NCBI RefSeq assembly: GCF_037975245.1
Contig: NC_092565.1
Location: 23,991,999 to 24,055,998 of the forward strand
Direction: 5' to 3'
DNA length: 64,000 bases
Origin: Apostichopus japonicus
Taxonomy: Eukaryota > Echinodermata > Holothuroidea > Aspidochirotida > Stichopodidae
Position 1 is the stretch's first letter. Every line of letters starts with the position of its first letter. Positions 6,256 to 60,700 of this stretch are shown here, in pieces. The notes under the pieces were generated by a model that was not told the DNA's origin, did no database searches, and was given only the letters and a program-made list of their open reading frames with translations. The position numbers and the translations under genes are program-made.

Positions 6256-9200
6256 ATGATGAACACAGGCATGCCTAACTCCACGTCGTGGAACATAAAA
6301 AGAAGACGTGACTTTAGTGAACTTGATCCTGGAACACAAGTACCGGGGTAAGTATATCGTAAGCCTAGTCATCTCCGAGTCAGACGAATGGGTGATAGGC
6401 ATAGCCACACCCATAATCAAGCAGTCTACCTGTTCCACTTTACTATTTCTAAGCAGTTGATGGTAACTTTGGCAATAGCCAGCCCGTTATCATGTATAGC
6501 TGTAGCCTAGACTAATTTAAGTTAGGCAACATTGATACAACTTGATGTTGGGACTGCTAAAGTTGAGGCCTAATGTTACATTTCCATATGGTTACTCTTA
6601 GTCCTTACAAGAACCAAACTTTGAGACACAAAATTATGAATGTGATGAAAAACATTTGAGTTTGGAATGGCGCATTTAATAAATATTATCAGATTTACAG
6701 TTCTTGGTTAAATAAATGTAGGTCTAGTAACTTTTCTTTGTACCAAATTGATCCATGGCTCATTTAATTAACATCAGATTTACAGTTCTGGTCAAATAAA
6801 TGTAGGTCTAGTGACTTTTCTTTTACCAAATTGATCCATGGTGTCACAGCTAATGAATTTTACATTCATGCTACGGACAGTAAGTGGTCGTCTACCGTAA
6901 GAGACCTAACATTAATAAGTAACTGTTATGCCTAGCCTATTTAAGCCATAATGTTAAGTTGGTGGAAAACATATACATGTACCCTGCGTATGTATAGGAA
7001 CTTGTAAAAATCTCATTTGGTTTCCCTAAAAAGCAAGATGTGCTCATTGTTAATGATTTGAATGTAGACTTTGGGAATATGTTAACGATTAGCCTCTGTG
7101 TACAGACTTATAATAATATGTTTTACTTTGATTTCTTCCATGACAGATATGGTGGTTATATTGAACAGTACAAATACCATGTAGGTGACACCTATGGAAA
7201 TGCAACAAACAAGTTATCAAAGGTGAGTACTACTTTAATACTATTTCAATCAAAGTAAATTGAAAGTGGCCATGCTTACAGTGATTGTACATTGATGTAT
7301 GCATCTTGTGAATCTTTCTGTTATTGTTAACAGACCTATTCTGGTTTTTCTTAGTGACTGTCTATTTTACAATGTTTTCTCTTTCTTGCAAACTAGAAAT
7401 ATTATTGTCAGTCATCATCTATGTTTCATGAAAATATAAAACCAAACAAACTTTTATGTATTTTTCAACCCTGGAATAGATGAGAGTGGGTCGGCACCCA
7501 ATTGTTTCATCTCTCCCAGAAAGCTTTAACCAAGACAGGGCTAAAGTTGGAACTGGTCTAACAACATCCATTGATATGTCAGGCCGAAGAAGGGTCTTGA
7601 CACTGCCTAAGTCAACTGGAGATAATAAACTAACAGAAAAGATGGTTCCAGGCTACACAGGTATGTTGCAGAAGTGGGTGAAATGTAGCACTATGGGCGA
7701 GAACATTAAAATTTTTAAGGAATTGTCCCAAAATTTGAACAGAACTAAAAACTGTATGATAGTTTTGTAGAATTATTCTTAGCATGCAGTGGCAACTTTG
7801 GAGCAGATGATTTACGATGACATAGAAGTGGTGACCATTTTACAATGCATTATATAATAGCCAGTAAAAGGATAGGGGCAGTGGGTTGCCTTGAACGTCC
7901 CCACTAGAATGCCACTGTTTCTCTCAGTCAGTGTTGACAATTGCAATTGTTTTTAAAAGATGACAAGAGTGTACCATTTAGTAATTTCAAAATGTAAATT
8001 CTGCCCAACTGTCCTGTCACTGAACAATCATAAGATTTACAGAGAACATTTTCTTTGATAGGTTACATACCAAGAAGACCATTCAAGTTTGGGAACACAT
8101 ACAAAGAAGACTGTGACGTTTGTATCGATGATTTCATGAATAATACGCAAGATAGGAGTGAAGAGATATTTGACCTTCGCAAAACAGTCGCTGGTTCCGG
8201 CCGTCTCCGACCATTGACCGATGAGAAGACTGTCATCAAGACTCTAAATGAGTACAGAGATACGCACCCACTTCGCCCCATACTATTATGTAAGTCTATG
8301 TATCAGTTGTGGAGGGTATATTGTCTATTTGTCTTTGCTATATATGACACAGTAATAACTATCTAAAGTGTGTGCATAGATTCCAAAATTATGTTTCATA
8401 AATGTTATAAAAATAGAAACCAGAAATAAATATGTGCTATTTTACACATATAGTTTATATAACTATTTTGTTGTTGTTGCTCATCAGCTGACAAACGCTT
8501 TCCTAGGGAGGCCCCTGTACCTGGTTACCAAGGCTTTATTCCAAGGCAAGGAGTAACAGAAATCGGTTTGGGTACAAGGTACCATGTTGTCTGCGACAAA
8601 TCTTTTAATGCCTTCCATGATGCAACTGAAAGGCATGCTTCCCAACTTACCAGGAGTGCACCAGCAAAGTAAGTAGATCTTTCATGCACTGAGTTGCTGG
8701 GTAATGATGGGGGGGGGTGGGTTGGTGGGGGGGCCAGTACAACTGTGGGTAGTGAAAGTGGTGAGGATGACATTTTGACCTTTACTTTCCTTCCATTTAT
8801 ATATTTAATCTTTCCAGGCCTGGTTAAGGAACATTTTTGTGAAATATAAGTTGTCACCATACAGAATCCTTTATTACAGATATGATGTCCTCTTTGATTT
8901 CATGTTATTACAAACATTTTGAATCTGGGTGGAGATAAAAAGAAGGTCTTGACAAAAGTTAAGAAGTAGTCACAGTAACAATGTCATCATTTCTCTGTTA
9001 TCAATATTCAAGTTATTACTTTTGATACACCAATATTCTGTAATAAGGGCATCTAGGTTATTAAACTTCCAAATATATTTCAATTGAGGTTTGTGTTGGC
9101 TTTTCTCTCTGGCAGTTTCACTCTTCCAGATAATAAAGCAAAGGCAAGTATACAACTGACACGAGAAGACAAGGAGACACAAATGCAGAGGAGATTATAT

Positions 9201-11414
9201 AAACCGATTGGAATGGTTCCAAAATATACTGGATATATGCCACGTGAGTACTTTATATTAATGCTTATCCAAAACCATATAAACCGATTGGAATGGTTCC
9301 AAAATATACTGGATATATGCCACGTGAGTACTTTATATTAATGCTTATCCAAAACCATATAAACCGATTGGAATGGTTCCAAAATATACTGGATATATGC
9401 CACGTGAGTACTTTATATTAACGCTTATACAAAACCATATAAACCGATTGGAATGGTTCCAAAATATACTGGATATATGCCACGTGAGTACTTTATATTA
9501 ATGCTTATCCAAAACCATATAAACCGATTGGAATGGTTCCAAAATATACTGGATATATGCCACGTGAGTACTTTATATTAACGCTTATCCAAAACCATAT
9601 AAACCGATTGGAATGGTTCCAAAATATACTGGATATATGCCACGTGAGTACTTTATATTAACGCTTATCCAAAACCATATAAACCGATTCGAATGGTTCC
9701 AAAATATACTGGATATATGCCACGCGAGTACTTTATATTAATGCTTATCCAAAACCATATAAACCGATTCGAATGGTTCCAAAATATACTGGATATATGC
9801 CACGCGAGTTCTTTACATTAATGCTTATCCAAAACCATATAAACCGATTCGAATGGTTCCAAAATATACTGGATATATGCCACGCGAGTTCTTTACATTA
9901 ATGCTTATCCAAAACCATATAAACCGATTCGAATGGTTCCAAAATATACTGGATATATGCCACGCGAGTTCTTTATATTAATGCTTATCCAAAACCATAT
10001 AAACCGATTCGAATGGTTCCAAAATATACTGGATATATGCCACGTGAGTACTTTATATTAATGCTTATACAAAACCATATAAACCGATTGGAATGGTTTC
10101 AAAATATACTGGATATATGCCACGTGAGTACTTTATATTAATGCTTATCCAAAACCATATAAGCCGATTGGAATGGTTCCAAAATATACTGGATATATGC
10201 CACGTGAGTACTTTATATTAATGCTTATCCAAAACCATATAAGCCGATTGGAATGGTTCCAAAATATACTGGATATATGCCACGTGAGTACTTTATATTA
10301 ATGCTTATCCAAAACCATATAAGCCGATTGGAATGGTTCCAAAATATACTGGATATATGCCACGTGAGTACTTTATATTAATGCTTATCCAAAACCATAT
10401 AAACCGATTCGAATGGTTCCAAAATATACTGGATATATGCCACGTGAGTACTTTATATTAATGCTTATCCAAAACCATATAAACCGATTGGAATGGTTCC
10501 AAAATATACTGGATATATGCCACGTGAGTACTTTATATTAATGCTTATACAAAACCATATAAGCCGATAGGAATGGTTCCAAAATATACTGGATATATGC
10601 CACGTGAGTACTTTATATTAATGCTTATCCAAAACCATATAAACCGATTGGAATGGTTCCAAAATATACTGGATATATGCCACGTGAGTACTTTATATTA
10701 ATGCTTATACAAAACCATATAAGCCGATAGGAATGGTTCCAAAATATACTGGATATATGCCACGTGAGTACTTTATATTAATGCTTATCCAAAACCATAT
10801 AAGCCGATTGGAATGGTTCCAAAATGTACTGGATATATGCCACGTGAGTTTTTTATATTAATGCTTATCCAAAACCATATAAACCGATTAGAATGGTTCC
10901 AAAATATACTGGATATATGCCACGTGAGTACTTTATATTAATGCTTATACAAAACCATTTGTGTTCGCTGAGAAGAAACCCATCAATTTGCCTTTTTTGC
11001 TAAAACAGTCAAAAAATTATTATTTAGTATTTACTCTCAAAATGATTCCTTCTTGAATATTTGTCCTCCTGTCACAATATTTGAAACCTCAAATATAAAT
11101 ATAGCACCTTGAAGAACAGTTTAGCATCATTGCATGTACATTGGGACATAGTAATGAGTACTAACAACTCTCTGAATCTTATTTTGGTTTTCCTTAGTCT
11201 TTAAGATAATAATCAATAAAACCTTTTGTTATACTGTTGACAAATATTGACCTTAAATTGATTTCCCGTATTTCTGAATTCTTTCTTGGCAGAAAATCGC
11301 TACAAATTTGGTCATACTTACGGTGACTCTACTCGCAGCCTTCCGGTATGTTTCCATGATAAGGGAACCTTTGGTGAATATGTTGCAACGGGTGCTCCAC
11401 AAGTGGCAATGTAA
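6256..11414 (+). CDS. CIMIP2B: CIMIP2/FAM166-family ciliary microtubule inner protein
   Basis: Seven coding exons with consistent phases give 335 aa: 6256-6347, 7147-7222, 7480-7660, 8062-8289, 8488-8668, 9116-9243 and 11293-11414. The start is the first of two ATGs near 6256. Four copies of the family motif (G-Y-x-G-Y/F-x-P followed by a G-x-T/R-Y block) are visible: 'VPGYGGYIEQYKYHVGDTYG' (about residues 29-48), 'VPGYTGYIPRRPFKFGNTY' (about 113), 'VPGYQGFIPR' (about 202) and 'VPKYTGYMPQNRYKFGHTYG' (about 286-305). The last spans the exon 6/7 junction. Proteins of this family sit inside ciliary doublet microtubules. Which paralogue this is (CIMIP2A, B or C) cannot be settled by eye. Exon 6 ends inside a 22-copy minisatellite that repeats its 5' splice site. 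The gene has an X-box upstream and is bracketed by two inverted hAT MITEs. Confidence 0.85.
6670..6842 (+). repeat. Two-copy tandem duplication (~90 bp) in CIMIP2 intron 1
   Basis: Two adjacent copies share 'cagatttacagttc', 'aataaatgtaggtctagt' and 'accaaattgatccatgg'. They differ by small indels and substitutions. The duplication lies wholly within the intron between exons 1 and 2. Confidence 0.75.
9197..10958 (+). repeat. 80-bp minisatellite, 22 copies, spanning the exon 6 donor of the CIMIP2-family gene
   Basis: The unit repeats every 80 bases, with 'aaaccgatt' at 9201, 9281, 9361 and so on to 10881. The first copy contains the last ~45 bases of exon 6 (coding 'KPIGMVPKYTGYMP') and the GTGAGT donor at 9244. 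Every later copy repeats both. Four adjacent copies (donors at 9724, 9804, 9884, 9964) carry GCGAGT in place of GTGAGT. Other copy variants are gattG/gattC and aaacc/aagcc. Only the first donor joins in frame to exon 7; extending the exon into the array meets a stop at 9339. Confidence 0.97.
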
Positions 11415-13267
11415 ACAGTTCATTGTAATGTCTTTGGAATTTTCAGAGACACATGTTATTATATGGATGAATCTCTCAACTAGAGGAAAGGAGCAAACAG
11501 TTTGCAAAGGTTTGCAATTATTATCACATGGATCTGGCAATATGTGGTAATGTGACGGTGCAACTTAGGTGGTGGCAATGGAAATTGTCACTGTGTTCAG
11601 GTTTGTTAAGGATGAAGTAGTGAGATCTGTACTTGTTTAATTTGTTAGTCAAATATACTCAATTATTAGTTTTTTAAAGAAAGTTTGTAGGGTGAGGGGG
11701 GGGGGGGGTCGGAGGGGGAAGGGCTGTTTATGCTGCTACTGCATATTACTCTGTAGTTCCTCAGGGTCTAACACATATGAGTAAATATCGCTGCTGGTGT
11801 TATGTGCTAAAGTTTGCTATACATGTGTGAATACTTCCATCACAAGGTTTACCTATGTGAATATTACATAGTAGTGACTAATGTCTCTTCCAGTACATCA
11901 TATGACATAAAATAATGTGGCTTTTAGTGTTACATTATGTTTCTTCAGTGAATTTCCTAACAATACACATGCATTTCTTTATTTTTTTCATAATGTGCAC
12001 TGAGTAATGAAAGTATAGTGACATTTTCATTTTAAAAGAAGTAATATTCTGAAATTAAAAAAAAACGTAGCTTTAAAGCTTATTAAAAATTTGTTTTATG
12101 CAGTGATCAGATTAACCCATTTTAATTTTTAAATAAAATGTGCCAAGTCTGGGCTAGTGTGTAACAGTTATTAAGTTAGTAAAATTAATTTCTATTCATA
12201 CAATAAAGGTTAATAGCGTTACCATATTGATTAAGTCATGATGTCTTCGTAAATTTAAACTGTTACCACTATAAATTTGATATTTCTTTTATGTTATTAA
12301 TATATTTCCAGCTTCTTTCTTTGATAATGCTCATTGCTTTTGGGACATGTCACTTCACAATTGTCAAATTAATAAATTCTTCTACTTTCTGAATTATGTC
12401 AGAACTAAGTAGTAGTGAATTGCTTATACTTCAGATGAGTTTCATTTTCTACTTAAGTACAAATTGAGTAAAATCATTTGAATCTTGACATTAATCTCTA
12501 ATCCATTTAGATATTTCCACACGAGACTGCTTCTATCAATGTCAAAATAGCACAGAAATATATTGATATTGCAGAACGTTTTTCATGTGTATTAGCAGTT
12601 TGTGTACAGTTAGCACATTCATGTCAACAATTTGTTGTATCATGTGAAGAAGGATAATTATATATAAATCTTTTGTGGTGTTATGTTCAAAAGACAATGA
12701 AGATGATGTGATTTCCTAAAATAGTTGGCAGCAATATTAACCAGCAGCAAATATGCCTGCTGGTTTTGAAAAAGAAAACTGTTGATTCATGGTGAATAGG
12801 GAAGTATATGATAAAAGATATAAGCATTTAAGACAGTATTTATATATCTGTTGAGCCAAGTCAGTTTAAGAATTGAAATTGTAAAGGTTTGTTATTTTAT
12901 GTAAAGGTTGAAAGCAGGCTAATAAATTTTGTATTTATCTGGAAAAAGTAATGTTTAGTGTTAACTTTTTTTTCTCAAATTTGTTTGTGTTTCGAATTAG
13001 AAGCCTTGAACTGTACTGGTATTTCAGTTCCACCAATACTTTGTAAAAATTTCAGGAATTTGCTGTTAGTACCCAGAGATGTGACTTAGATTAAGAGAAT
13101 ATACATATACTACCAGTCAGTACTTACCACAATCAATCTTGCAGCATCAGACAAGAAAGATGCTAATTATATGAGGAGGGGGTGGGGTGCAGGGCATATG
13201 AGAGCCAGCTTGGGTCCCTGGGCAATGATGTCACCCACCAGTATTCTTTAACCAAATTTTCCCAGAC
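11415..13267 (+). other. 3' UTR and downstream intergenic sequence of CIMIP2-family gene
   Basis: This is AT-rich with no further coding signal. Several AATAAA hexamers (for example near 12132 and 12202) could serve as the polyadenylation signal, so the 3' end cannot be fixed. There is a run of G near 11697. Confidence 0.4.
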
Positions 13268-13275
13268 TATATAAT

Positions 13276-13921
13276 CAAGGGCGGCAGAAGCACTTTTAAT
13301 CTGGGGGGGCACCGACATCAAAGGGCACTTTGCAGAAATTCGATTGGACTGATGCAGCCTTATATTTAGTACCCTTTATAACTCTTATTGTATTATCTTA
13401 TTTGCGTATACACATCACTCCATCAACGCCCCCCCCCCACCCCAACGAAAATATGCATACTAGCACTGCAATATCCAATGTGCAAATTGGGAAACAAGGA
13501 ACAAGTTTTGTTTTGAGACAAAATGAGGTGAAATCATGCTAGTTGCTAATGTAGGAATCTTCCGAATTAGAGTTTATTTCTTGTCAATATCTTAACAAAT
13601 TTTTTCCATTCGAAATAGCTTTGAGTGTGACCCACAGAACTTCATTAAAAGTCATGGGCGTAGCCAGGATTTGCAAAGTTGTATGCACGACTTTCTGAGC
13701 GGAGCGCCACCATCGGTTGGCGCGGAGCGTACAAGAAAATTTTTGGTTTTACAAACCCCTCAGATGGCTGGAAACGGCCCTTCCCGAGTGTTCATTCTGG
13801 TTGTCTGGCCTCTTGCTAACTTGAGACACCTCAATTTTTATGTAGAAAAAGGGCACATTTTTAAACTGAGGAAAAGTGGGGGGCACGTGCCCCCTGTGCC
13901 CCCCTGGTTCCGCCGCCCTTG
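13276..13921 (-). mobile_element. Non-autonomous hAT-type DNA transposon (MITE), copy 2
   Basis: It has the same termini as the element at 4071-4832: CAAGGGCGGC... at one end and ...GCCGCCCTTG at the other. The flanking 8-bp direct repeat TATATAAT is perfect (13268-13275 and 13922-13929). The interior matches copy 1 in reverse orientation along both arms, including the 'gatgcagcc' and 'gcatactagcactgcaat' regions. The middle differs and contains 'gggcgtagccaggattt', which may come from another MITE. There is no transposase. Confidence 0.9.
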
Positions 13922-13929
13922 TATATAAT

Positions 13930-14349
13930 AGAATCCTGGGGCTGTAACCCTACCTGACCCTCTTCTTGGCAGGTCATGACTCACTATTATGCACCTTTCT
14001 TCTTCAATATCAGCTAGGGAGAAATCTCATTAATCTGCTACCTACACCCCCCCTTCAGCCCTTTCATGTTTTAGATTCAATACGAAACTAGAAAGGACAA
14101 TATGTTGACAACTAACAAACTTGGTAGTAGGTAACTTACTGTTTTACACACACTTTAGTATCGTCAAGAATTTGAACTTTCTTATACTTTGCATGTATGT
14201 TGAGTGTAACTTACGTTGACAAGATGAACAGTGTGTATACTAGATCATGATACTCTTAAACGATCAAGGGCTAAAACACGATAAGGAAGCTAATGTAACC
14301 ATATCGTCCACCCCTTCACTTTTGGTAATTTGGATCTCTTAATTAATCG
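13930..14349. other. Intergenic, no gene recognised
   Basis: Only short open frames and AT-rich sequence are visible between the hAT MITE and the RTE-like LINE. Confidence 0.4.
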
Positions 14350-15832: not shown

Positions 15833-15835
15833 TGA

Positions 15836-26400: not shown

Positions 26401-28802
26401 TGAGTATTGTATATTTGAGTATTGTATATGTGAGTATTGTATATTTGAGTATTGTGCATTTGAGTATTGCATATTTGAGTATTGTATATTTGATTAGTTT
26501 ATTTGAGTATTGTATATTTGAGTATTGCATATCTGAGTATTGTATATTTGAGTATTGTGCATTTGAGTATTGTATATTTGAGTATTGCATATTTGAGTAT
26601 TGTGTATTTGAGTATTGTGTATTTGAGTATTGTATATTTGAGTATTGTATATTTGAGTATTGTATATGTGAGTATTGTATATTTGAGTATTGTTTATTTT
26701 AATATTGTATATTTGAGTATTGTATACATATTTGAGTATTGCATATTAAGTATTTTATTGTGTATTTTATTGGTTGCATTCTAGGGTAAAGAGCAAGGTC
26801 AGATGATTGAGAAGCCAGTTACCAAGTGTGATATGGGGGTACAGACAGAGGTACACCCCATGGAGTCCAATATCGTCAAGTCCTACGAATGGAATGAATG
26901 GGAATTACGCAGAAAGGCCATCAAACTGGTAAGGATTTTTCAAATTAAACAGTGTGATTGAAGTGTGGCTGTTTTGTTGGTGAATGATTAAGGTCAATGT
27001 TTTCAGGCACAACTAGTTGCTGTTATAGGGTATGAATTAAATTGTATTATACCGGTGCTGTGGCCAAATGAATAAAAGCGGTGGCATTTGAAACAATGAG
27101 GGTTAGCAATCGTGAGGTTTGGGGTTCGATCCCCAGCCGGTCGTAATAAGGTGGGTTATTCATCCAAGAGCAATCTACAGGTTTCCCATCTAAAATGACT
27201 TTCTGCATTGAAAAGGTTCCAAATTTGACTCAAAATGTTGAATCTGAATGTGTAATCCATAAGCCCTTGCAGGCTCCTCCCACATTAGTGGTCACTGCAG
27301 CATCTTAAACATAACTGCCTGATTAGTATTAAAGTATAGGCTGTTTTGTTGTTCACTGAAATGGGTAGTTCTTTATTTTTATTGTAATCATCAGTAGTTA
27401 TTGGTAAATTATTGTATAATTGTCGTCCATGTAGATTGCAGGAGTATGTTTTCAATCAGCAATAAATATTTTTTTTGTCAATGTTATGGGGTCATGTTTA
27501 ACAGTGTGTTAAAGTCTGTGTTGACGATGTTGGGTGATTAATTCAGCAAAACTATGAGTCAACATTGCTGTCATTTTAAGGTTTCCTCCTGGCCTGCTGA
27601 TTTTAAATTTGATAAAAAGCACTTCACACCTTTTTTGCAATTTTATCCTCACCAGGCAAACCTTCGCAACAAAGTTACCCACTCAGCCCAGACTAACTTG
27701 AGCAACCTGAGGAGAGATAATGTTACCCAGGTTTATTTACCAAAGTAAGAAATTTTTCCTCAAATATTCCAAATTCTTCTATGCATTTGGCTATCTTTCA
27801 TCTCTAATGTTATTGTCAAAATTCCCCATACCCCCCCCCCAATTTCATTCATGTACAAAGTGCAGTGGTCACTCCAAAAGGAGAAATTTACCTTACTAGT
27901 AAATGACAACAACTCTACTGATAAGGGTTACCATGTTATATCTGAGGAATCCAACTCTAACCTGATAAGGGTTAACATGTTATATCTGAAGAATCCAACT
28001 CTACCCTGATATTGGTTACCATTGTTATATCTGAAGAATCCAACTCTACCCTGATAAGGGTTACCATATTATATCTGAAGAATCCAACTCTACCCTGATA
28101 AGGGTTACCATGTTATATCTGAAGAATCCAACTCTACCCTGATAAGGGTTAACATATGTTATATCTGAAGAATCCAACTCTACCCTGATAAGGGTTACCA
28201 TGTTATATCTGAAGAATCCAACTCTACCCTGATAAGGGTTACCATATGTTATATCTGAAGAATCCAACTCTACCCTGATAAGGGTTAGCATGTTATATCT
28301 GAAGAATCCAACTCTACCCTGATAAGGGTTACCATATGTTATATCTGAAGAATCCAACCCTACCCTGAAAAGGGTTACCATGTTATATCTGAAGAATCCA
28401 GAACAAGTTATCATGGCTGAGAAAGGAGTCTAAGTTGCTGGGTGCTCTCTCGCTTTTGGGGAAACATAAATTGGTCTGAATGGGGGTGGCTAAAATCCAA
28501 CTCAAGGAAATTGCAATCGACCAAGCAAGACTGACGGGCTGTTACAATGCTACTTCTGACAATCTGTCTTTCAGTGTAATATTTTTTATGTATCCATGCA
28601 TACAGCATGCTAATTATTGACTTGTAACTCCTAAAACATGATTCTTTTATACTTTTTCAGGGAGGTTGGCAGTCAGACCAAACAAGATGGAGCCAGTAAT
28701 GTTCCCAAACCGCAGGTTTTCTTAGCTGGATTGAGAGGAGGAAACACCAAGACAACTGTGATGACCAAAATGGACCTGACATTAGACGTCGACCAAACTT
28801 AA
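17467..28802 (+). CDS. CFAP206: Cilia- and flagella-associated protein 206
   Basis: Fifteen coding exons, all phase-checked, give 623 aa, close to the length of vertebrate CFAP206. They are 17467-17658, 18684-18774, 19394-19582, 20164-20322, 20869-20961, 21565-21677, 22264-22383, 22855-22959, 23539-23625, 24669-24773, 25276-25418, 25834-25933, 26785-26928, 27656-27744 and 28661-28802. Recognised family blocks run from the N-terminal 'AQAESVIKNIIREIAQE' through 'DTIKMQVYFDMNYT', 'LLRSGLGSPTDI', 'TGIRLFNKECGKGGEGIDDL' and 'RSYEWNEWELRRKAIKLA'-type sequence to the C-terminal 'QVFLAGLRGG'. In Tetrahymena the orthologue docks radial spoke 2 and dynein c on axonemal doublets. The start follows the family ('M-x-x-x-QAESVI'); an ATG seven codons upstream is in frame but lies before a likely acceptor. 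Introns 12 and 14 hold large minisatellites, while the coding exons are intact. Confidence 0.97.
20515..20650 (-). mobile_element. tRNA-derived SINE in CFAP206 intron 4
   Basis: On the minus strand the sequence has an A-box-like 'TAAGCAACCGGGCC' close to the head. It also has a good B-box, 'AGGTTCGAAGCC' (20593-20605). The spacing is that of an RNA polymerase III tRNA-type promoter. The body and tail are unclear. The adjacent 'ccacatataaagggtgagg' is directly repeated once at 20649-20688. Confidence 0.6.
21772..21908. repeat. GATA-rich simple repeat
   Basis: Irregular 'agataa' and 'aaaagataa' units fill this part of CFAP206 intron 6. No further function is evident. Confidence 0.7.
24330..24655 (+). 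repeat. Four-copy degenerate tandem repeat before CFAP206 exon 10
   Basis: Units carry 'aatactgcctaataa', 'tataatagataagtat' and 'tatttcacttttattt'. They are present about four times with internal deletions, at periods near 75-105 bp. The last copy ends about 15 bases before the acceptor of exon 10 (exon starts 24669). The branch-point region may therefore lie in the repeat. Confidence 0.7.
26237..26755. repeat. 15-bp minisatellite (TTGAGTATTGTATAT)n in CFAP206 intron 12
   Basis: More than 30 near-perfect copies of a 15-base unit form the array. Because 15 is divisible by 3, it gives long open frames on both strands (such as repeating 'IVYLS' and 'FEYCI'). These are artefacts. The array is preceded by degenerate 'ttgagtacaa' units near 26125-26210 that look like the seed. 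It ends about 30 bases before exon 13. Confidence 0.95.
27050..27310 (+). mobile_element. tRNA-derived SINE in CFAP206 intron 13
   Basis: The head resembles a type II (Ser/Leu-like) tRNA, starting 'ccggtgctgtggccaaatg' and containing the perfect B-box GGTTCGATCCC at 27123-27133. It is followed by a non-tRNA body. The head lacks an intact anticodon-arm fold by eye, and the gene-internal position favours a SINE over a functional tRNA gene. Confidence 0.65.
27918..28397. repeat. 44-46-bp minisatellite, ~11 copies, in CFAP206 intron 14
   Basis: The unit contains 'aatccaactctaccctgata' and 'agggttaccatgttatatct'. Some copies are two bases longer ('accatatgtt'). Edge copies are more divergent than central ones. 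It lies wholly inside the intron. Confidence 0.93.
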
Positions 28803-28868
28803 TACTCTAGAAGGGTGCTGGGAAACACTTCAAAGTTTAACCAAAAACATCACCTTGAATGTAGAAAT

Positions 28869-31151: not shown

Positions 31152-34100
31152 TCAGCTCTTTTTTACTTTAGTTTCTTCCTGAACTGGTTTGGGCTTTGCA
31201 GACCTAGCAAACACCTGTGGATGAGGTCATATAAACACAGAAGCTAATACATAGGTCTGTCACACAAACAGCATATGATATGAAAAGAACTAGTCTCTCA
31301 AAGTACCCTTCACCATCACATACATGACAATTATTATTAAACACAATGTCACTGTGTAATGTCCTCTGACAGTATTTAAGGCCAAACTACTTTGTTAAGT
31401 CTTTATAAGACTTTATAGGAGACTTCCTTTCCCATTGTATACAATTGGCGATAAAACAAATAAATAAATTTAACAAAGCACACACACGCACAAATAACCA
31501 TATGTACTAAGCAGATCTTATTAAATTAAATTCTATAAAGAAACCCGGCAAAAGCAATTTGCTGGTTAAATCAGCTGATAATTTACAGGTGCTGTTGAGT
31601 AAGGGTGTCTTATCCTTCACTATATAATTGACTAATGTCACATCATGTTATAACTATTTGGAGATGAATATATCCCAGTGAGTTATGTGGGAAGCCCGAC
31701 TCAATTTCATGTTCTTAGTTCCCAGCATAGATTTGTTTGAAGCCTCCAAATACCACCAACTTGGCAATAAGAAATGGTCCTCAAACACATGACTCGTTAT
31801 CAACTAGCTACTCATTATCTTTCAATCATGTTTATTTAAGTTACAGATATATTGTTTCGTCGTATTTAATATTAGCCCGATGTCTTACCACAACTAAAGG
31901 CTTGCCATGTAGTAGGTAGCCGTTTGTTTCTTTCACTGCTTTCTTGGCTGAGTAGTCGCTGGGAAGTCCTACGAAAGCTTGGCCCTTCATACGACCCTGC
32001 TTCATCAGCTGTATGGAGAACCTTTCAGAGGAGGAGGAGGAGGAGGAGGAGGAGGAGGAGGAGAGAAATACAAACACTGATGATGTAACCGTAGGCTGAG
32101 GCATTCCTACACGTATAGATACAAGATGATGGTTGGGTTAATTTATTGGATTTAGTTATGATTTGTAACCGTAGGCTGAGGCATTCCTACACGTATAGAT
32201 ACAAGATGATGGTTGGGTTAATTTATTGGATTTAGTTATGATTTGTAACCGTAGGCTGAGGCATTCCTACACGTATAGATACAAGATGATGGTTGGGTTA
32301 ATTTATTGGATTTAGTTATGATTTGTAACCGTAGGCTGAGGCATTCCTACACGTATAGATACAAGATGATGGTTGGTTTAATTTATTGGATTTAGTTATG
32401 ATTTGTAACTGTAGGCTGAGGCATTCCTACACGTATAGATACAAGATGATGGTTGGGTTAATTTATTGGATTTAGTTATGATTTGTAACCGTAGGCTGAG
32501 GCATTCCTACACGTATAGATACAAGATGATGGTTGGATTAATTTATTGGATTTAGTTATGATTTCAGATATTATCATCTTTAATCAAGTCTTAAGCTTAA
32601 AGGATTGGTTCAGTTGTCATACATGTTTGTGTTATATGAAAGAGGACAATAAAACAAACACAATACTGTTCAAATATCAGATTGTGTAGAAACTGCTGAA
32701 ATCTGACTAGCTGTGATGTCACATCCTCACATTCCTGAAAAGTCTTTCTTTTTTCTCTAAATATTTTGTGAGATTTCATGACTTTCAACCAAAAGATATG
32801 TCAGGAGATCTCATATTTGTCAAAGGAAGTATTTGAGATTAAACATCTGACGAATTTTTTATTATATTATTTTCAAATGTGTTAAAAAATGTAAATAATT
32901 TTTAAAGAAAAATATTCACAAATGTTAAGGAAGTGAGGATGTGACATCACACCCTCACAGTTAGTCTTTCTACACTTGTCGTTTTCAAAGAAATTTTGAT
33001 ATCTTCAAAGTGGCATATCTCCTTAACAGAGCATGCTATCATGGTAGTTTCTTCACTGTTCTTTTTGTGCTCTTTCATACAAAATAGACATGTCAAACAC
33101 CTGAACCAATCCTTTAAGCTGCTTTATAAACCAAGAACACATATAGAGAACTAAGATGAATAGAATAACTTCACATATGGACTATTTCATTTGGTAAAAC
33201 TCAATTAAAATACTATTAAATTTCATGATGCACGCAGTGTAGGCTGTTTCAGCAACCTCATGCATCAGGATTCAAAAAGTGGACTTGGAGGCCAATTCCC
33301 TCCCCCCCCCCTCCCCACCCACTAATTTTGGTAGAGTAATGAACCGTTACATACAGGATGTAGGCGGATCAAATGTTTAACGAAAGAGGGGTGTGGCTGT
33401 GTGGTCGTCGAATGCGACTCCCATGTAGGGGGATCTGGGTGTCCTCTACCAGAAAGAAATTCAAAGTTAAGACATCAAATGATGCATTCTCATAATGAGA
33501 CTATAATTAGCTTTATAATTAATTCTAAAGGCAAAGTTGTCCTAATACGTACTTTTGAACTTTGAATAATAATGTATCCCTCTGACTGTATGTTTCTCCC
33601 CACGACTGATGATGGTGGGTCCATGCCTCTCCCCCTCTGCCACCCCTTTGTGCAAACCACTGGCACCCTCACTAATGTGTGATAACCAGTTTGCTGAAGC
33701 ATCTCCAAATATGATACTACTTCTAATGCAAGTTGTCCTACATCAGCACTTACAAATCTTGATCTAAGGCTGACGTCCAATCTACGTATCTCTGGTAGAC
33801 ATATTTAACACTCACATATCTTTATCTAAAGCTGACGTCCAATCTACGTATCTACCGTAGACATATTTCAGGTCTTTCTCCTCTACTTGTTTGGATAAAT
33901 TCTTGATGTAAAGTCTCGTGTTGGGTTCACCGGGGTTGTATCGCTTGAAAACTGACATGTTCTTCATTTCTGGAAAGAGAAGAAAAATGGGGAACAATTT
34001 GATGGGAGACACTTAGTCATTTCTACTGTCATCTATTTCACAAAGAGCTGAGGTATTTCAGAGAGCTGTGTGTATATCTCAAATACTTAATTGATGTAAA

Positions 34101-39844: not shown

Positions 39845-40137
39845 GACCGTATGGGCCTACCACGAATGGGTAGCTCGGGAGTTGCAGTTTTAGAATATTT
39901 ATTTGCTAGAGAATATTTATTTGCCAGATACAGAGAAGACAATAAAGTTAGGTCCTGAAATGAAATGAGTATGTACTTTAAGAAACGTACAAGGGGCTTT
40001 TGTCCTTCAGAAACTGTCTTTCTTTATAGTAAAAATGATCTTTTACATAAAGATAAAAATTATTTTATATAAATTTGTTACTAATTATTAATAATCCACA
40101 GTCCTTGTTATTTTTGACATAGAGAAGCACGAAAAAG
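39845..40137. promoter_or_regulatory. Divergent promoter region of RNPC3 and MRPL35
   Basis: The start codons of RNPC3 (minus, 39844) and MRPL35 (plus, probably 40138) are about 290 bases apart and point away from each other. A spacing this small implies a shared bidirectional promoter. No TATA box or specific factor site was recognised. Confidence 0.6.
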
Positions 40138-48700: not shown

Positions 48701-51700
48701 GTAAACTATATTTGGAAGATTATGTTTGGAGAGTTCAATGACCAATATTATGGTCATCAACAATGATATTTAATGTCTCCCTCTCCCTTCACACATTTTA
48801 CAGTGTAGCTGAGAGGTTATCTACTGTTATTATAAAACATTTTGTAAATCACACTAACAAATTTCTCCAAAATATCTCCCAAAATAAAAACATCTTACAC
48901 ATAGTATCCGAACATCTACTGTACTTGCAGCTCACCTAAATGGCCAATCTTGTAGAGCGAATCGATTTGATCTCTCTCATTTCCCTCAAGCAGTCTGTCT
49001 CGTAGATCATCGTGGACTTCTTTTCCGTGACCGGTCTTCCCCAGGGTCTGGGCTGCTATCATCCTCACCTCCTTGTGCCAGTCATTCCACATCAAATTGG
49101 TCAATTTGTGAGTAATATCCTGTACCAAGACAGACAACATCAAATTATATCTATTACTTCAGAGAGATCCCCATAACTGATCTGTTTGTGAGTAATATCC
49201 TGTACCAAGACAGACAACATCAAATTATATCTATTACTTCAGAGAGATCCCCATAACTGATCTGTTTGTGAGTAACATCCTGTACCAAGACAGACAACAT
49301 CAAATTATATCTATTACTTCAGAGAGATCCCCATAACTGATCTGTTTGTGAGTAACATCCTGTACCAAGACAGACAACATCAAATTATATCTATTACTTC
49401 AGAGAGATCCCCATAACTGATCTGTTTGTGAGTAATATCCTGTACCAAGACAGACAACATCAAATTATATCTATTACTTCAGAGAGATCCCCATAACTGA
49501 TCTGTTTGTGAGTAATATCCTGTACCAAGACAGACAACATCAAATTATATCTATTACTTCAGAGAGATCCCCATAACTGATCTGTTTGTGAGTAATATCC
49601 TGTACCAAGACAGACAACATCAAATTATATCTATTACTTCAGAGAGTTCCCCATAACTGATCTGTTTGTGAGTAATATCCTGTACCAAGACAGACAACAT
49701 CAAATTATATCTATTACTTCAGAGAGATCCCCATAACTGATCTGTTTGTGAGTAATATCCTGTACCAAGACAGACAACATCAAATTATATCTATTACTTC
49801 AGAGAGATCCCCATAACTGATCTGTTTGTGAGTAATATCCTGTACCAAGACAGACAACATCAAATTATATCTATTACTTCAGAGAGATCCCCATAACTGA
49901 TCTGTTTGTGAGTAATATCCTGTACCAAGACAGACAACATCAAATTATATCTATTACTTCAGAGAGATCCCCATAACTGATCTGTTTGTGAGTAATATCC
50001 TGTACCAAAGACAGACAACATCAAATTATATCTATTACTTCAGAGAGATCCCCATAACTGATCTGTTTGTGAGTAATATCCTGTACCAAGACAGACAACA
50101 TCAAATTATATCTATTACTTCAGAGAGTTCCCCATAACTGATCTGTTTGTGAGTAATATCCTGTACCAAGACAGACAACATCAAATTATATCTATTACTT
50201 CAGAGAGATCCCCATAACTGATCTGTTTGTGAGTAATATCCTGTACCAAGACAGACAACATCAAATTATATCTATTACTTCAGAGAGATCCCCATAACTG
50301 ATCTGTTTGTGAGTAATATCCTGTACCAAGACAGACAACATCAAATTATATCTATTACTTCAGAGAGATCCCCATAACTGATCTGTTTGTGAGTAATATC
50401 CTGTACCAAGACAGACAACATCAAATTATATCTATTACTTCAGAGAGATCCCCATAACTGATCTGTTTGTGAGTAACATCCTGTACCAAGACAGACAACA
50501 TCAAATTATATCTATTACTTCAGAGAGATCCCCATAACTGATCTGTTTGTGAGTAACATCCTGTACCAAGACAGACAACATCAAATTATATCTATTACTT
50601 CAGAGAGATCCCCATAACTGATCTGTTTGTGAGTAATATCCTGTACCAAGACAGACAACATCAAATTATATCTATTACTTCAGAGAGATCCCCATAACTG
50701 ATCTGTTTGTGAGTAATATCCTGTACCAAGACAGACAACATCAAATTATATCTATTACTTCAGAGAGATCCCCATAACTGATCTGTTTGTGAGTAATATC
50801 CTGTACCAAGACAGACAACATCAAATTATATCTATTACTTCAGAGAGTTCCCCATAACTGATCTGTTTGTGAGTAATATCCTGTACCAAGACAGACAACA
50901 TCAAATTATATCTATTACTTCAGAGAGTTCCCCATAACTGATCTGTTTGTGAGTAATATCCTGTACCAAGACAGACAACATCAAATTATATCTATTACTT
51001 CAGAGAGATCCCCATAACTGATCTGTTTGTGAGTAATATCCTGTACCAAGACAGACAACATCAAATTATATCTATTACTTCAGAGAGATCCCCATAACTG
51101 ATCTGTCACTGAAGTAAACGTTTCTGAAGTGCTGTTTATGACTAATAGTTATCTTTGTCGAAGATTCTGAAAGAGAATTTAATGAGTTGAGAATTCTTAA
51201 ACTATGCCGTAGACAGTTCATACGGCTCTGGGTCTTGATATACATGATTTGTACTCTTTAGGCCTCTTTACACAATATGTTGCATGACAACATAAGATGA
51301 ACTTACAAAGATGCACTGGGTGATTGGCATATTCAAGGTTCCACTTTTGCTGTTTGCACCAAACAAAAATGTATGCTTTGGAAAACACAAGTTAAAGTGC
51401 ATAAACAGTTAGTTTGAATTGAAACTTCCCATCACCATTTTCAGAAATTTCAATAATTAATAATATACTTGTTTTATAGGGTTTTAGTCTCATGGTGACC
51501 CGGTGCTTCTACCGATAATGCCCACAGCACTAAATTCATTGCAACAGCTTGTCAAGTTTCCCATAACTAGGCAGGACCGATATAACAGCGCCCTCTATTA
51601 ATTTTGTTCACAGTTAGGGAGCCCATTCAATAGAGATCACAGTACCTTATTGACAACTCCATGAAGTCTCGGTAGAACCTTGCAGGCCACAATTCGCCTT

Positions 51701-54700
51701 CTCCAACTGGTGCTGTTCAGCTGTTCTGCTACCATTGAGTGTACAATGGAAGAGTTCTGGCTCAGCTTAGAGAGATGTGTCACACATTGCTCATGTTTGA
51801 CAATGTCCTCACTGCTGAACAGTTGGTTGACCAGCTCACCAACCACGTAAGAATCACAGACTCCGGCATGAGCCAAGCACTGGGCAGCAGCCCATCGTTC
51901 TGGCGGTGTACCCGTTCTGATGATGTTGTTCAGCAGGGCCTTGGCCTATTCAGAATTGTAAGACAAAAATATGATAACTAATCATAAGTAATCATGCAGT
52001 AAGTGTCAAACAATGCATTTCACCTTGATTTGAATGTTTAATATTATCATCATGTGAATTAATCTGAACTGATGTATAAAGAAGTTTAAATTTACACATT
52101 TCTCTTGTCTGCAAACAGTTGGCTTTAAAGAATACAATTTTGTTAACCTATCAACCTTCTTAACTCCTCACTACTTTTCAAATTTTCAACCTTCTCGACA
52201 TTGGTATTCATAAATCGAATATAAAACAGGGTCCTTTATGATCAAAGCAACAACAGACAGATAGACTGACTGACAGATATGCATTTTCCGCAGGTAGTCT
52301 TCTCAATTGAGAAGAGTAAGACCAGTATCTCAAAATAAAACCCATAATAGCAAGAATGATTGCTTATCTGCATATATATTTGTTTATTAACATATTACCT
52401 CATTTGTTTATTAACATTAAGCAAGAATGATTGTTAATCTTCCTATGCATTTGTTTATTAACATAGGTAGCAAGAATGATTGTTAATCTTCCTATGCATT
52501 TGTTTATTAACATTAAGCAAGAATGATTGTTAATCTTCCTATGCATTTGTTTATAAACATTAAGCAAGAATGATTGTTAATCTTCCTATGCATTTGTTTA
52601 TTAACATTAAGCAAGAATGATTGTTAATCTTCCTATGCATTTGTTTATTAACATTAAGCAAGAATGATTGTTAATCTTCCTATGCATTTGTTTATTAACA
52701 TTAAGCAAGAATGATTGTTAATCTTCCTATGCATTTGTTTATTAACATAGGTAGCAAGAATGATTGTTAATCTTCCTATGCATTTGTTTATTAACATAGG
52801 TAGCAAGAATGATTGTTAATCTTCCTATGCATTTGTTTATTAACATAGGTAGCAAGAATGATTGTTAATCTTCCTATGCATTTGTTTATTAACATAGGTA
52901 GCAAGAATGATTGTTAATCTTCCTATGCATTTGTTTATTAACATAGGTAGCAAGAATGATTGTTAATCTTCCTATGCATTTGTTTATAAACATTAAGCAA
53001 GAATGATTGTTAATCTTCCTATGCATTTGTTTATAAACATTAAGCAAGAATGATTGTTAATCTTCCTATGCATTTGTTTATTAACATTAAGCAAGAATGA
53101 TTGTTAATCTTCCTATGCATTTGTTTATAAACATTAAGCAAGAATGATTGTTAATCTTCCTATGCATTTGTTTATAAACATTAAGCAAGAATGATTGTTA
53201 ATCTTCCTATGCATTTGTTTATTAACATTAAGCAAGAATGATTGTTAATCTTCCTATGCATTTGTTTATTAACATTAAGCAAGAATGATTGTTAATCTTC
53301 CTATGCATTTGTTTATAAACATTAAGCAAGAATGATTGTTAATCTTCCTATGCATTTGTTTATTAACATTAAGCAAGAATGATTGTTAATCTTCCTATGC
53401 ATTTGTTTATTAACATTAAGCAAGAATGATTGTTAATCTTCCTATGCATTTGTTTATAAACATTAAGCAAGAATGATTGTTAATCTTCCTATGCATTTGT
53501 TTATTAACATTAAGCAAGAATGATTGTTAATCTTCCTATGCATTTGTTTATAAACATTAAGCAAGAATGATTGTTAATCTTCCTATGCATTTGTTTATAA
53601 ACATTAAGCAAGAATGATTGTTAATCTTCCTATGCATTTGTTTATTAACATTAAGCAAGAATGATTGTTAATCTTCCTATGCATTTGTTTATTAACATTA
53701 AGCAAGAATGATTGTTAATCTTCCTATGCATTTGTTTATAAACATTAAGCAAGAATGATTGTTAATCTTCCTATGCATTTGTTTATTAACATTAAGCAAG
53801 AATGATTGTTAATCTTCCTATGCATTTGTTTATAAACATTAAGCAAGAATGATTGTTAATCTTCCTATGCATTTGTTTATAAACATTAAGCAAGAATGAT
53901 TGTTAATCTTCCTATGCATTTGTTTATTAACATTAAGCAAGAATGATTGTTAATCTTCCTATGCATTTGTTTATAAACATTAAGCAAGAATGATTGTTAA
54001 TCTTCCTATGCATTTGTTTATAAACATTAAGCAAGAATGATTGTTAATCTTCCTATGCATTTGTTTATTAACATTAAGCAAGAATGATTGTTAATCTTCC
54101 TATGCATTTGTTTATAAACATTAAGCAAGAATGATTGTTAATCTTCCTATGCATTTGTTTATAAACATTAAGCAAGAATGATTGTTAATCTTCCTATGCA
54201 TTTGTTTATAAACATTAAGCAAGAATGATTGTTAATCTTCCTATGCATTTGTTTATAAACATTAAGCAAGAATGATTGTTAATCTTCCTATGCATTTGTT
54301 TATTAACATTAAGCAAGAATGATTGTTAATCTTCCTATGCATTTGTTTATTAACATTAAGCAAGAATGATTGTTAATCTTCCTATGCATTTGTTTATAAA
54401 CATTAAGCAAGAATGATTGTTAATCTTCCTATGCATTTGTTTATAAACATTAAGCAAGAATGATTGTTAATCTTCCTATGCATTTGTTTATTAACATTAA
54501 GCAAGAATGATTGTTAATCTTCCTATGCATTTGTTTATTAACATTAAGCAAGAATGATTGTTAATCTTCCTATGCATTTGTTTATTAACATTAAGCAAGA
54601 ATGATTGTTAATCTTCCTATGCATTTGTTTATTAACATTAAGCAAGAATGATTGTTAATCTTCCTATGCATTTGTTTATTAACATTAAGCAAGAATGATT

Positions 54701-57700
54701 GTTAATCTTCCTATGCATTTGTTTATTAACATTAAGCAAGAATGATTGTTAATCTTCCTATGCATTTGTTTATTAACATTAAGCAAGAATGATTGTTAAT
54801 CTTCCTATGCATTTGTTTATTAACATTAAGCAAGAATGATTGTTAATCTTCCTATGCATTTGTTTATTAACATTAAGCAAGAATGATTGTTAATCTTCCT
54901 ATGCATTTGTTTATTAACATAGGTAGCAAGAATGATTGTTAATCTTCCTATGCATTTGTTTATTAACATAGGTAGCAAGAATGATTGTTAATCTTCCTAT
55001 GCATTTGTTTATTAACATAGGTAGCAAGAATGATTGTTAATCTTCCTATGCATTTGTTTATTAACATAGGTAGCAAGAATGATTGTTAATCTTCCTATGC
55101 ACTTGTTTATTTATATAGGTGCAAGACAATTGTGTTACATCTTGCCAGTAGCTGGTTAGTAGAAATTAAAATTCAGTTCACATTGTGAAAACACAAGGTG
55201 GGAAAAGGTGGTGTTTGGGAATGGTGGTGGGTGGGAGAGGATTTGCTATATATTGTTTAAAAGTAAAGTCTGTTTAAAAAGAATATTTGACAAAATACAC
55301 AAAATAAAGCTAACAAGGCAAACTTATGAGTTTTCCTATGAGGCTCTCATCACCTTTTTCCAGACTCAGAGAAAGTAGGTCTGGCTGAACTTAACATCAT
55401 GATGAATGAAACCTAACTTCTGCATTAACATTCAAGACTACATTGTATTATTGTTGTGCAAGCAATGCCAAACTATGTGCAGTTAACTAAATTAAATTAA
55501 AAAACTTTGTGTGGTTCTCAATCTATTGCAAGTGAGTTATACTACGTACTCATTGACACTTTCATTGTCCCTGAGTGACTGTGGTAGTAGTTACTACTAA
55601 CGATACTCACAGACACTTTCATTTGTCCTTGATTGACTGTGGTAGTAATTACTTCTAACTATACTAACGGACACTTTCATTGTCCCTGAGTGACTGTGGT
55701 AGTAATTACTACTAACAATACTCACAGACACTTTCATCGTCCCATTTCAGAAAAAAAAAATATGTATCTTCTTTCTAATTTAAAAATCTTCACCTGGTAA
55801 ATTTTGAAATCCATTCTTCAATAACATTTTAAATATTATCTTGCTCCAATTTGTTACAAGTTATTACTAAGATAACATAACTGCAGAGGATACAAAATCG
55901 TTTTTTTTCGTGATTTTTGTTCCTGTAACAGAGAGTGGTTTGGCCTATAAATTTACAAAACCTTCTCTTTCTACAAGTTGTTTACAATACATAACACAAA
56001 AGGATACCAGATGGTGTGTAGTACTTGTTTCCCTTCTTCTGCTTATTTGTCTGTTAAATGGAGTGATTTGATATTTACATTATCACAGAAGAAAGATTGA
56101 TCCCCCATAAGGTCTGTTCACTGTTTCATGAGTTTTCACAAACTAGTTGCAACCGAGTGAAAGTTTTGTGCAGGTGCAGAAAATTATAAGATGTGACATC
56201 CTTCACTTACCATGTCATTGGAGGGCTTCAATGAAATATCAAGTAAAAAGGATAAAAATTATTGCAAGAAAAATGAACAAAATACTCAAATGTGCTCATG
56301 TTAACAGACAGAGCCAATAACTTTAAGGTATACTTTTCACCTTGATTTTGATACAAGTATTTCAACAAACTTTAGTTTACATTTCATAGCTTCTGTGAAT
56401 TATTTGTCACAATTATTCTCTATTATGTTTTAATACAGTACAGGTCCAGTTCTAGAATTGAAACTGAGCCATCAGTTCATCAGGAATTGACCCCAACCTT
56501 GTACAATGACCTGTTTGTGTGGTCACTTTCATAAGCCAGAATCCCAATCGTTAACACTCAATGATGGATGATGATAAAATCAGAAAGAACCGGAAAGATT
56601 TCGGCAACAGAAAATTCATCATTGGGACTTACTTATCAAGTGACAAAAACATGGCTGACATGCAATTCATTTGGCAACATTTGGTTATCAGAGTTTCAGA
56701 GTTTTTCTCTCTTCCTTGAAGGTAAGTTCATCCTGTGAGGCTCTTTATCCTCCAGTAATTTATCTTGAATTTCCTTTTCAGATCATTGGGGGTAGAGAAG
56801 GAGGTCAACTTAAGCCCAAGGATCAGGAGATTTGGAACAGCGAGCTGTCAACATGTGGAGTCAGTAATAACAGGAAATGGAACTGTAAAAAGTTCAAAAT
56901 GATTATTGTCTCACTTGGACAGTGTCATACATCTAATAGCATGAGTTCTATGGATTATGAGGGCTAGATGGAAAACAGACCCCAAGCAAGGCCACATAAC
57001 TAGCATAAAGAAGATGGGGAGAGTACCCAATATATATTAATAATTTGTAACTCACCTCTTCATTAGGCCTGCTTAACGTATAGAGTGTAATGGCAGCCGT
57101 GACTCTGACTCTGTGACTGGAGTCATGCAGGGCGCCCTCAATGGATTTAACAAGCGTCTCGGGTAAAATTCCCTGCGAATCGTTTGCAGTCTGATCAGAT
57201 CTCTGTCTTCGAAATCTTGAAATTGTGTCTGCACAGGGAACAGAAAAATTTTGAGGAATTAAAAGAAATGTACAATGAAAGACATTGCACAGACCTTGCA
57301 GACAGCTTGATAAATAATCATATACATAATATTATCATATATTATAAATAGATATAGAAGCATATTTGCACTGTAGAAATAAACTGACAGGAAACCGATG
57401 AAAAATATTTAAATTCATTGAATTAGTTATTTACTAATGTTCATCCAATAGATTGATTTGGATGCCCGCTTGATACAGAAGAAGACAAAATAGTCACATC
57501 ACCATGAACTGATATGGTCTGATAGGACGTTATGATAGGATTTAGGGTGAGTGTACCTTTTATAAGGTCACCTAGCTCTGGAGTAGGGCATCGGGTGGAT
57601 TAACATACGTACAGGGATACTGGGCCCTGAAGCAGGGCAGTAGGTGGATTAACATACCTTTTATAGGGATAGCGGTCTCTGGAGCAGGACAGTAGGTGGA

Positions 57701-60700
57701 TAACATACCTTTTATAGGGATACCCGGCTCTGGGGCAGGGCAGTAGGTGTATTAACATACCTTTTATAGGGATACCGGGCTCTAGAGCAGGGCAGTAGGT
57801 GGAAAACATACCTTTTATAGGGATAGCAGTCTCTGGAGCAGGGCGGTAGGTGGATTAACATACCTTTTATAGGGATACCAGGCTCTGGGGCAGGGCAGTA
57901 GGTGGGTTAACATACCTTTTATAGGGATACCGGGCTCTGGGGCAGGACAGTAGGTGTATTAACATACCTTTTAGAGGGATACCAGGCTCTGGAGCAGGGC
58001 GGTAGGTGGATTAACATACCTTTTATAGGGATACCAGGCTCTGGAGCAGGGTGGTAGGTGTATTAACATACCTTTTATAGGGATACCAGGCTCTGGAGCA
58101 GGGCAGTAGGTGGATTAACATACCTTTTAGAGGGATACCCGGCTCTGGAGCAGGGCGGTAGGTGTATTAACATACCTTTTATAGGGATAGCGGTCTCTGG
58201 AGCAGGACAGTAGGTGGATAACATACCTTTTATAGGGATACCCGGCTCTGGGGCAGGGCAGTAGGTGTATTAACATACCTTTTATAGGGATACCGGGCTC
58301 TGGAGCAGGGCAGTAGGTGGATAACATACCTTTTATAGGGATACCAGGCTCTGGAGCAGGACAGTAGGTGTATTAACATACCTTTTATAGGGATACCAGG
58401 CTCTGGGGCAGGGCAGTAGGTGGATTAAAATACCTTTTATAGGGATACCAGGCTCTGGAGCAGGACAGTAGGTGTATTAACATACCTTTTATAGGGATAC
58501 CCGGCTCTGGAGCAGGGCGGTAGGTGTATTAACATACCTTAGGGATACCAGGCTCTGGAGCAGTGTGGTAGGTGTATTAACATACCTTTTTACAGGGATA
58601 CCAGGCTCTGGAGCAGGGCAGTAGGTGGATTAACATATCTTTTACAGGGATACCGGGCTCTGGAACAGGGCGGTAGGTGTATTTACATACCTTTTACAGG
58701 GATACCGGGCTCTGGGGCAGGGCGGTAGGTTGATGCTCTGGCTATGGTAGCCACTGCCTGTAGCCTCACATGTTCATTCAAATCTTTTAAGTCCCTTTCC
58801 AAGTCCTCTACCGAGCTGTCGTACCATTTGTTACTCAGGTTCCACTTGCTTCTCCATTCGTCAACTATAGAACAAAGGGTCAGTTATATCATTGAGAAAA
58901 TCCACACATGCAGACAACACAATATAATACAACACAACAAAATGCAATGCAAGACAATAAAATGCAATGCAATACAATAAAATGCAATGCATTATAATGC
59001 AATACAATGCAAATACAATATAATCAAATACAATACAGTAGAAGACAATAAAAGACAATACAATGTATTACACAACACAATAAAATGCAATGCATTATAA
59101 TGCAATACAATACAGTAGAATACAATACAATAAAATGCAATGCATTACAACACAATACAATGCATTACAACACAATAAAATGCAATAAAATGAGATGCAA
59201 TACAATACAATACAATATATATAAGATAGTGTAATGTTAATCATGGGCCAATTGAAACTTAATTGGCTGCTTCCACAGTATTTTTTAAGGCATTAATAAA
59301 GTAATCACAAATACTCTACATTCATTCACTAAGTGTACATATATAGTAAGAACAGGAGCCATTCTCAAGGAAGAAGTTGCTGCTATTAATTTGAAGGGGT
59401 ACATAATTCATTGGTTAATTTCAATTTCTTTGTTCTTTCCTATTGATTCCAGTGCAGGATAATATTTGCTTACACACAGATTTTACGACCTCCAATAGAT
59501 GCTTACCTAATCTTACCAGCGCTGGATTCTCTCTGTGGTTTCTAAGGGTGGATGGGGAAGGTTCTCTGTGGGCCTCTGGGTCGTAACCAGCTTCATGGAC
59601 GCTCATGACTTCTTCCTACAAAAAGATATGATTAAAGGTAACAACGTGTGTCTCTTTGTTTTATCGTTTATGTTTTATTTAATGATATGACATGATCTCT
59701 TTGTATTTAATACTGTACATATTTGTATTTCAGGTCAGAATGCACTTAAACTGGGTTAATGAGAGATTAATTCATGAATGAGATTCCATATCTCAAACAT
59801 TTCATCACTCAGACACTTTTCATAATATAAATATTACTCCTTATGCAAAATTGGAACAACGTAACTAAAGAGAAAAAAAGGATTTGACTTCCCTGCACTT
59901 CATTGTTTGAAGTTAACTAGTAAAGCTAATTAAAAACATTGTTATTGAAGCACTAATATGGAATTATTACCAAAGATTTATCTCTGTTTTACATGCTCCT
60001 TCAAGGACTAAATGGTTTCACTAATTACTCACTGATGAGAAGTCATCTGTAAAAAATTTGAAGGAAGGTGTCTCTCTTCCTTTTGATCACTTGTAATTTT
60101 ATTTTTCAAAAAAATAAAATCAGTATTATCCATAAAATTGCAAACTAAATGCAAAGTCAAAAGTATATTTTTCACAGAGTGAATAATAAATCTATGTAGG
60201 AAAGTTCTACTATCATATTAATGTTAGAGGGGCCTGTCATTTTGAGAGTAGGATCTTATTCAAAGGTGAACTGAGATGAAAACAGACTAAAGGACACATT
60301 TAAAGACGGACAAACATCTACAAATTGGAACATTGAACAACACAAAGAGTAAAATTGGACAGAATGAAGGGCAGTGTGACGAGAGGAAGCCAGAGGTGAA
60401 AGGACTGCATGAGAGGGTAATAGTGATGTGAGAGTATTAATTAGTCCGACCACCATATATCTGTTTGGAAATCAAAGTCAGTTTTGGTGGTGGTTCAGTG
60501 GAGGACTAGTTGTTTACATCAAATGCTAATATCCCAAAGAGGTAAAAAATGAGAAGTTACTATTGCCCACTCTCACTCTAAAGATAACTGATATAAAACA
60601 ATAAGTGGTAGGCCTACAATATGATCCAACCAGGAGGGAGTTTTACTGGTCCAAAGCTGGTGTTTTCTATTCACCAAATCTACACATCTCCCATATAGTG

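Follow-up and report, generated by a model that had tools for sequence, protein, structure and literature searches.

The window analysed here, a stretch of 64,000 nucleotides from contig NC_092565.1 of the echinoderm Apostichopus japonicus, carries tandem arrays whose repeat unit straddles an exon-intron junction and contains a real splice site. Four of its 14 arrays cross a junction in this way, as found with Tandem Repeats Finder (TRF) and by reading of the splice junctions. They multiply a donor in CIMIP2, a donor in RNPC3, and both a donor and an acceptor in a HEATR4-like gene. The initial annotation had named the same four splice sites, and all of them stand, with the exons joining in frame. 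We think it probable that these are “mirage”-type arrays, in which duplication in tandem and later expansion took place at random and were borne wherever the copy on the exon side keeps the splice site. Positions given without a contig name are those of the window.

Splice sites inside tandem arrays

In CIMIP2, the unit takes in the final 47 bp of an exon together with 33 bp from the 5' end of the intron, donor included, and the first copy is the exon itself. The donor reads CCAC/GTGAGT, with the junction at 9243/9244 (+). Joined at the first donor copy, the exons match FAM166B/CIMIP2B chains with a gapless junction (best E 1.6e-12). GT is found in 18 of the 22 copies and GC in four. The GCGAGT that replaces GTGAGT occupies four consecutive inner copies, at about 9677-9996, a pattern suggesting that local copying spread a single mutation.

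For RNPC3, the donor is GATAT/GTGAGT, with the junction at 33816/33815 (-). The upstream copy (GTGAGT) fits the gene, and the downstream, intronic copy reads GTAAGT. The exons joined at the upstream copy align with RNA-binding protein 40 (5obn, 3egn) without gaps over 95 of 95 residues, with an E value of about 4e-39.

HEATR4 is the name that the initial annotation gave to a HEAT-repeat gene; its support consists of exons that join in phase and HEAT repeats in the product. Its acceptor (GGTACAG/GATATT, junction 49120/49119, -) lies in an array whose 3'-most copy is the start of the exon, and AG is kept in 25 of 25 copies. Its donor (AAAAG/GTATGT, junction 58691/58690, -) belongs to an array whose 5'-most copy is the end of exon 5, with GT kept in 21 of 22 scored copies. 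An alternative in-phase donor, G/GTATCC, is present 15 bp upstream, within the same 52-bp unit. In all four window arrays the exon-touching copy fits the reading frame and the remaining copies are intronic.

Junction arrays recur outside the window. As a gene sample chosen blind to repeats, we used eight pieces of 10 kb, each surrounding a dynein heavy-chain AAA_8 match; three were placed deliberately near contig starts. No junction arrays were seen in seven of the eight. The eighth, C12:470500-480499, holds four, and the adjoining 10 kb (L082), which was added because this piece proved array-rich, holds three more. Six of the seven are donor arrays, with periods of 141, 82, 60, 38, 83 and 84 bp, and one is an acceptor array of 74 bp; in two, the exonic part is only some 6-10 bp. 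The arrays in the added piece have 11, 18 and 43 copies, all with GT, in a search whose motif favours intact sites. A single exon lies between the acceptor array and one of the donor arrays. Across this exon, the joined model aligns to solved dyneins (E 3.6e-33, query 2-249 of 262), gapless at both of its junctions. Seventeen array edges bearing a perfect donor motif were considered (17 of the 32 places listed), and one of them is in the splicing factor gene YJU2; by eye, about six of these edges adjoin real exons, most of them uncertain.

Around these genes, we also observed that at least 12 arrays swell one dynein heavy-chain gene at C12:470500-490499 (L035, L082), where about 7 of 20 kb remain after collapsing. 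Two other arrays, L041 6937-7367 and L036 near 2231 (strand-oriented), lie near junctions and cross none. A dispersed repeat reading ILDPPASRNSRR or similar is present in introns of four dynein genes (L037, L038, L039, L040).

The window and C12 together give eleven junction arrays found without motif-based choice, nine at donors and two at acceptors. In all of them (four in the window and seven in dynein) the unit joins a coding exon end to adjoining intron with the splice site, and both 5' and 3' boundaries are duplicated. AG/GT is kept in 102 of 110 copies over seven arrays, the dynein acceptor array being excluded. The periods are not tuned to multiples of three (3 of 11).

An 80-bp period is shared by three window arrays (starting at 9197, 32084 and 49105), whose sequences had been called unrelated. 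This is correct: the units differ, and each matches only its own locus genome-wide (22, 6 and 25 copies). The three arrays therefore grew in place. Recurrence at junctions, the central claim of the initial annotation, is confirmed in the sense that the arrays are real, made in place, and also found in dynein heavy chain and YJU2.

Proposed random duplication and a possible preference for junctions

We propose that a local event would tandemly duplicate a stretch of some 40-140 bp, which would then expand through slippage or unequal exchange, this genome being rich in minisatellites. An array would survive where its unit happens to straddle a splice junction, because the exon-touching copy keeps exon, frame and splice site, and further copies are intronic. 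Duplications within exons would usually break genes; those spanning a junction need not, since the edge copy retains both the exon and the site. The spliceosome would be expected to use the exon-proximal site, namely the first donor or the last acceptor. The excess of donors may arise because the upstream donor is made first, while extra acceptors upstream of an exon would be riskier decoys.

The assembly comprises 671.6 Mb in 35 contigs; a distance of 0.42-0.49 Mb separates the window from the end of its contig, which is 24.48 Mb long. TRF reports 44 rows here, which after merging, with minimum values of 25 for the period and 100 for the score, give 14 arrays covering 16.1% of the window. Fifteen random 10-kb pieces, from the 1-20 Mb region of contigs 1-16, contain 17 arrays in 150 kb (5.3% of sequence). 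Judged from this sample, the genome is rich in minisatellites.

As for placement, each array was collapsed to one unit and the units were placed randomly outside exon interiors, with exon ends set manually or with tblastn. The expectation is raised by the inclusion of terminal exon ends among the sites and lowered by the omission of exons that escaped notice. In the window, 1.49 arrays would be expected to cross a junction, and four of 14 do so (post hoc P 0.053). With the first eight dynein pieces included, the count is 8 of 27 against 5.10 (P 0.107). For all 33 arrays, including the added 10 kb, it is 11 against 7.31 (P 0.080), or against 8.77 if 20% more splice sites are assumed (P 0.23).

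A second test scored the coding signal upstream of the first donor motif, with thresholds from 53 decoys. Of the 17 array edges, 3 have codon scores above the 90% level and 2 above the 95% level; of the 40 single motifs, 9 and 6 do (Fisher P 1.0). By eye, a coding flank is seen at about 6 of 17 array edges and 8-12 of 40 single motifs. Strong junction targeting is unlikely because of the results of these two tests. The low chance overlap suggested at the outset persists only as the weak excess in the window and as a twofold, post hoc excess among arrays of at least four copies.

Several observations weigh against random duplication with tolerance. Array density in the window is 1.9 times that of the random pieces (P 0.017), and three equal 80-bp periods occur in one window; an exact period shared by 3 of 14 arrays has a post hoc P of 0.014-0.055, varying with the smoothing used. 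The codon score lacks sensitivity, with several edges that resemble real exons by eye scoring low. At spacings of 62-92 bp, pairs of the donor motif outnumber those of the reversed motif (852 vs 371), with single motifs at 26,662 for the donor and 31,478 for the reversed form; this control is too dominated by satellites to decide, and satellite families weigh heavily among the matches listed. Arrays of at least four copies cross junctions in 10 of 21 cases against 4.80 expected (P 0.0065), or 5.77 with 20% more splice sites (P 0.026), in a subgroup picked after seeing the data, with 7 of its 10 crossing arrays from one dynein gene. Before the 10 kb was added, the corresponding count was 7 of 16 against about 3.0 (P 0.011-0.097 by assumed site number). 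In favour of the proposed process, both of the junction arrays with an 80-bp period and a donor array of dynein have periodic spans longer than whole units by 2, 2 and 1 bp, respectively (the remainder of the 25-copy array includes a 1-bp insertion), which is compatible with duplication using little microhomology. This point rests on three arrays because the other five of the eight checked for remainders have indels, partial units or large remainders.

The high-copy excess speaks for a rival in which duplications start at random, with greater expansion of those arrays that sit at exon borders (chiefly donors); DNA damage tied to transcription or splicing could be one cause. In its favour, only 1 of 12 arrays with fewer than four copies crosses a junction, and donors prevail nine to two. 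However, the subgroup is post hoc, all arrays together show no more than the trend given above, the coding-flank test shows nothing, and the donor bias is explained equally well by selection against acceptor decoys. We consider this rival unlikely. Expanded arrays may still prefer junctions about twofold, and a genome-wide count is warranted for both the donor bias and the high-copy excess. The sharper proposal that minisatellite expansion, not initiation, is favoured at 5' splice sites, with transcription- or splicing-linked damage amplifying donor-spanning duplications, seems to us rather doubtful. If it were true, very many genes here may carry tens of near-identical donors, and would offer a natural test of spliceosome choice between equal sites.

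Assembly, period and the question of intron birth

Long arrays are hard to assemble, and copy numbers may be wrong. An assembly artefact, or a transposon carrying the repeats, is nevertheless a very improbable source of the arrays: copies show distinct variants, the two-copy RNPC3 case requires no long array, and the confinement of the 80-bp units to their own loci led us to reject a repeat-bearing transposon for these three.

We give still less credit to a junction-targeted duplication machinery or an 80-bp ruler. Both had been suggested by the three 80-bp arrays and the four junction arrays within one window. No array of 80 bp is found among the 17 random arrays, and of the 16 loci read by hand (periods of 62-90 bp) two have 80 bp and five 73-74, so that the sampled periods have no peak at this value and the ruler was rejected. 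The chance that three arrays share an exact period somewhere among 44 is 0.36-0.81. Furthermore, the periods of the 11 junction arrays span 38-141 bp, and array donors stand beside coding sequence no more often than single motifs, so the targeting idea is not supported.

Equally improbable is intron birth or boundary sliding through tandem AG/GT duplication, which had also been raised for this locus. The part of PMC3443670 considered here treats tandem duplication as one of the accepted ways to gain an intron, and the cited part of PMC3087553 proposes it for amphioxus mirages, but every array here lies on the intron side of one boundary, and the conserved exons of CIMIP2, RNPC3 and dynein are unbroken and gapless at the junctions tested.

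Neighbouring features and known systems

The coordinates of arrays and exons are collected in Table 1.

Table 1. Tandem arrays and adjoining exons, in positions of the window.
Feature	Position	Strand	Basis or remark
CIMIP2 exon with multiplied donor	9116..9243	+	start 9116 or 9130 unsettled
Donor-crossing array, CIMIP2, 80 bp x 22.0, 97% match	9197..10958	+	TRF
Following CIMIP2 exon	11292..11415	+	acceptor CTTGGCAG/AAAATCG
15 bp x 32 array, CFAP206 intron	26246-26726		ends roughly 60 bp before next exon
44/45 bp x 11 array, CFAP206 intron, non-crossing	27910..28400	.	TRF
80 bp x 6.0 array, RNPC3 intron, non-crossing	32084..32564	-	TRF
Donor-crossing duplication, RNPC3, 62 bp x 2.0	33747..33868	-	TRF
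RNPC3 exon, C-terminal RNA recognition motif, duplicated donor	33816..33965	-	homologue alignment
HEATR4-like exon 8, multiplied acceptor	48936..49119	-	frame, HEAT repeats
Acceptor-crossing array, HEATR4-like gene, 80 bp x 25.0, 99% match	49105..51106	-	TRF
47 bp x 57 array, HEATR4-like intron, non-crossing	52401..55111	.	TRF
Donor-crossing array, HEATR4-like gene, 52 bp x 22.9, 87% match	57554..58734	-	TRF
HEATR4-like exon 5, multiplied donor	58691..58864	-	frame, HEAT repeats
53 bp x 11 array, HEATR4-like intron, non-crossing	61443..62015	.	TRF

Several ciliary genes stand in a row in the window, with a CFAP206-like gene (17446-28799, +) beside CIMIP2, RNPC3 and the HEAT gene. A 27-bp array at 29552-29610 bears GTGAGT, and frames read by eye show no exon there. 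Rfam gave no match within the window. Other repeats were recognised by eye. Reading-frame fragments at 14412-15870 resemble a broken reverse transcriptase of a retroelement. A repeat reading EPGGTGGTCPPLF has two copies in opposite orientations (3851-4162 and 13752-13949), and a second pair, also in opposite orientations, lies at about 4733 and at 13166-13375.

Elsewhere in the assembly, a 69-bp array at C6:157651-158618 has units in frame (TPAKFDVHFMSQVIE) and is, by eye, a possible coding repeat. Contig C35 is mitochondrial, with cox1 open under code 9 and the order cox1, then nad4L, cox2. This gene order, together with a mitochondrial code having AAA where Asn is usual, is an echinoderm pattern. 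An amphioxus source, which the mirage papers had brought to mind, was rejected on the strength of this code and gene order. Broken pieces of cox1 at C29:14745-31219 probably represent mitochondrial copies that are nuclear or unplaced.

Arrays that present an exon with 4 to 43 similar donors or acceptors are ready-made experiments in splice-site choice, of interest in that most scored copies have an intact site and the conserved protein fits the exon-proximal copy only. They also show where the tandem-duplication raw material for intron gain builds up. Among the matches listed in an open-access literature search, there was no echinoderm report of junction-crossing arrays. Their occurrence outside amphioxus, several per gene, makes a genome-wide count worthwhile.

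Ordinary intronic minisatellites of the same genome have overlapping periods and copy numbers, but a splice site with adjoining exon sequence is found only in the units of the junction arrays. In the portion of PMC3443670 cited, intron gain through tandem genomic duplication likewise involves local tandem duplication that includes splice signals; the present arrays differ in that they multiply an existing intron boundary.

The closest likeness is with the mirages of amphioxus. The cited sections of PMC3087553 and PMC3902484 describe them as tandem repeats resembling minisatellites, with a unit that spans an exon/intron boundary (5' or 3') and is present in 2-7 copies, many of which have AG/GT. 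They occur in Adh3 and the globins BflGb6/BflGb9 (PMC3087553), and in TnC and PGBD5 (PMC3902484). As far as these sections go, the anatomy is the same, with the present arrays known from the sequence of one assembly. The host differs, being an echinoderm here and cephalochordates in the reported mirages. Copy number differs as well, reaching about 43 here against the 2-7 described for amphioxus. Lastly, relative to those descriptions, the arrays found here are more clustered, with several in one gene and even on both sides of one exon.

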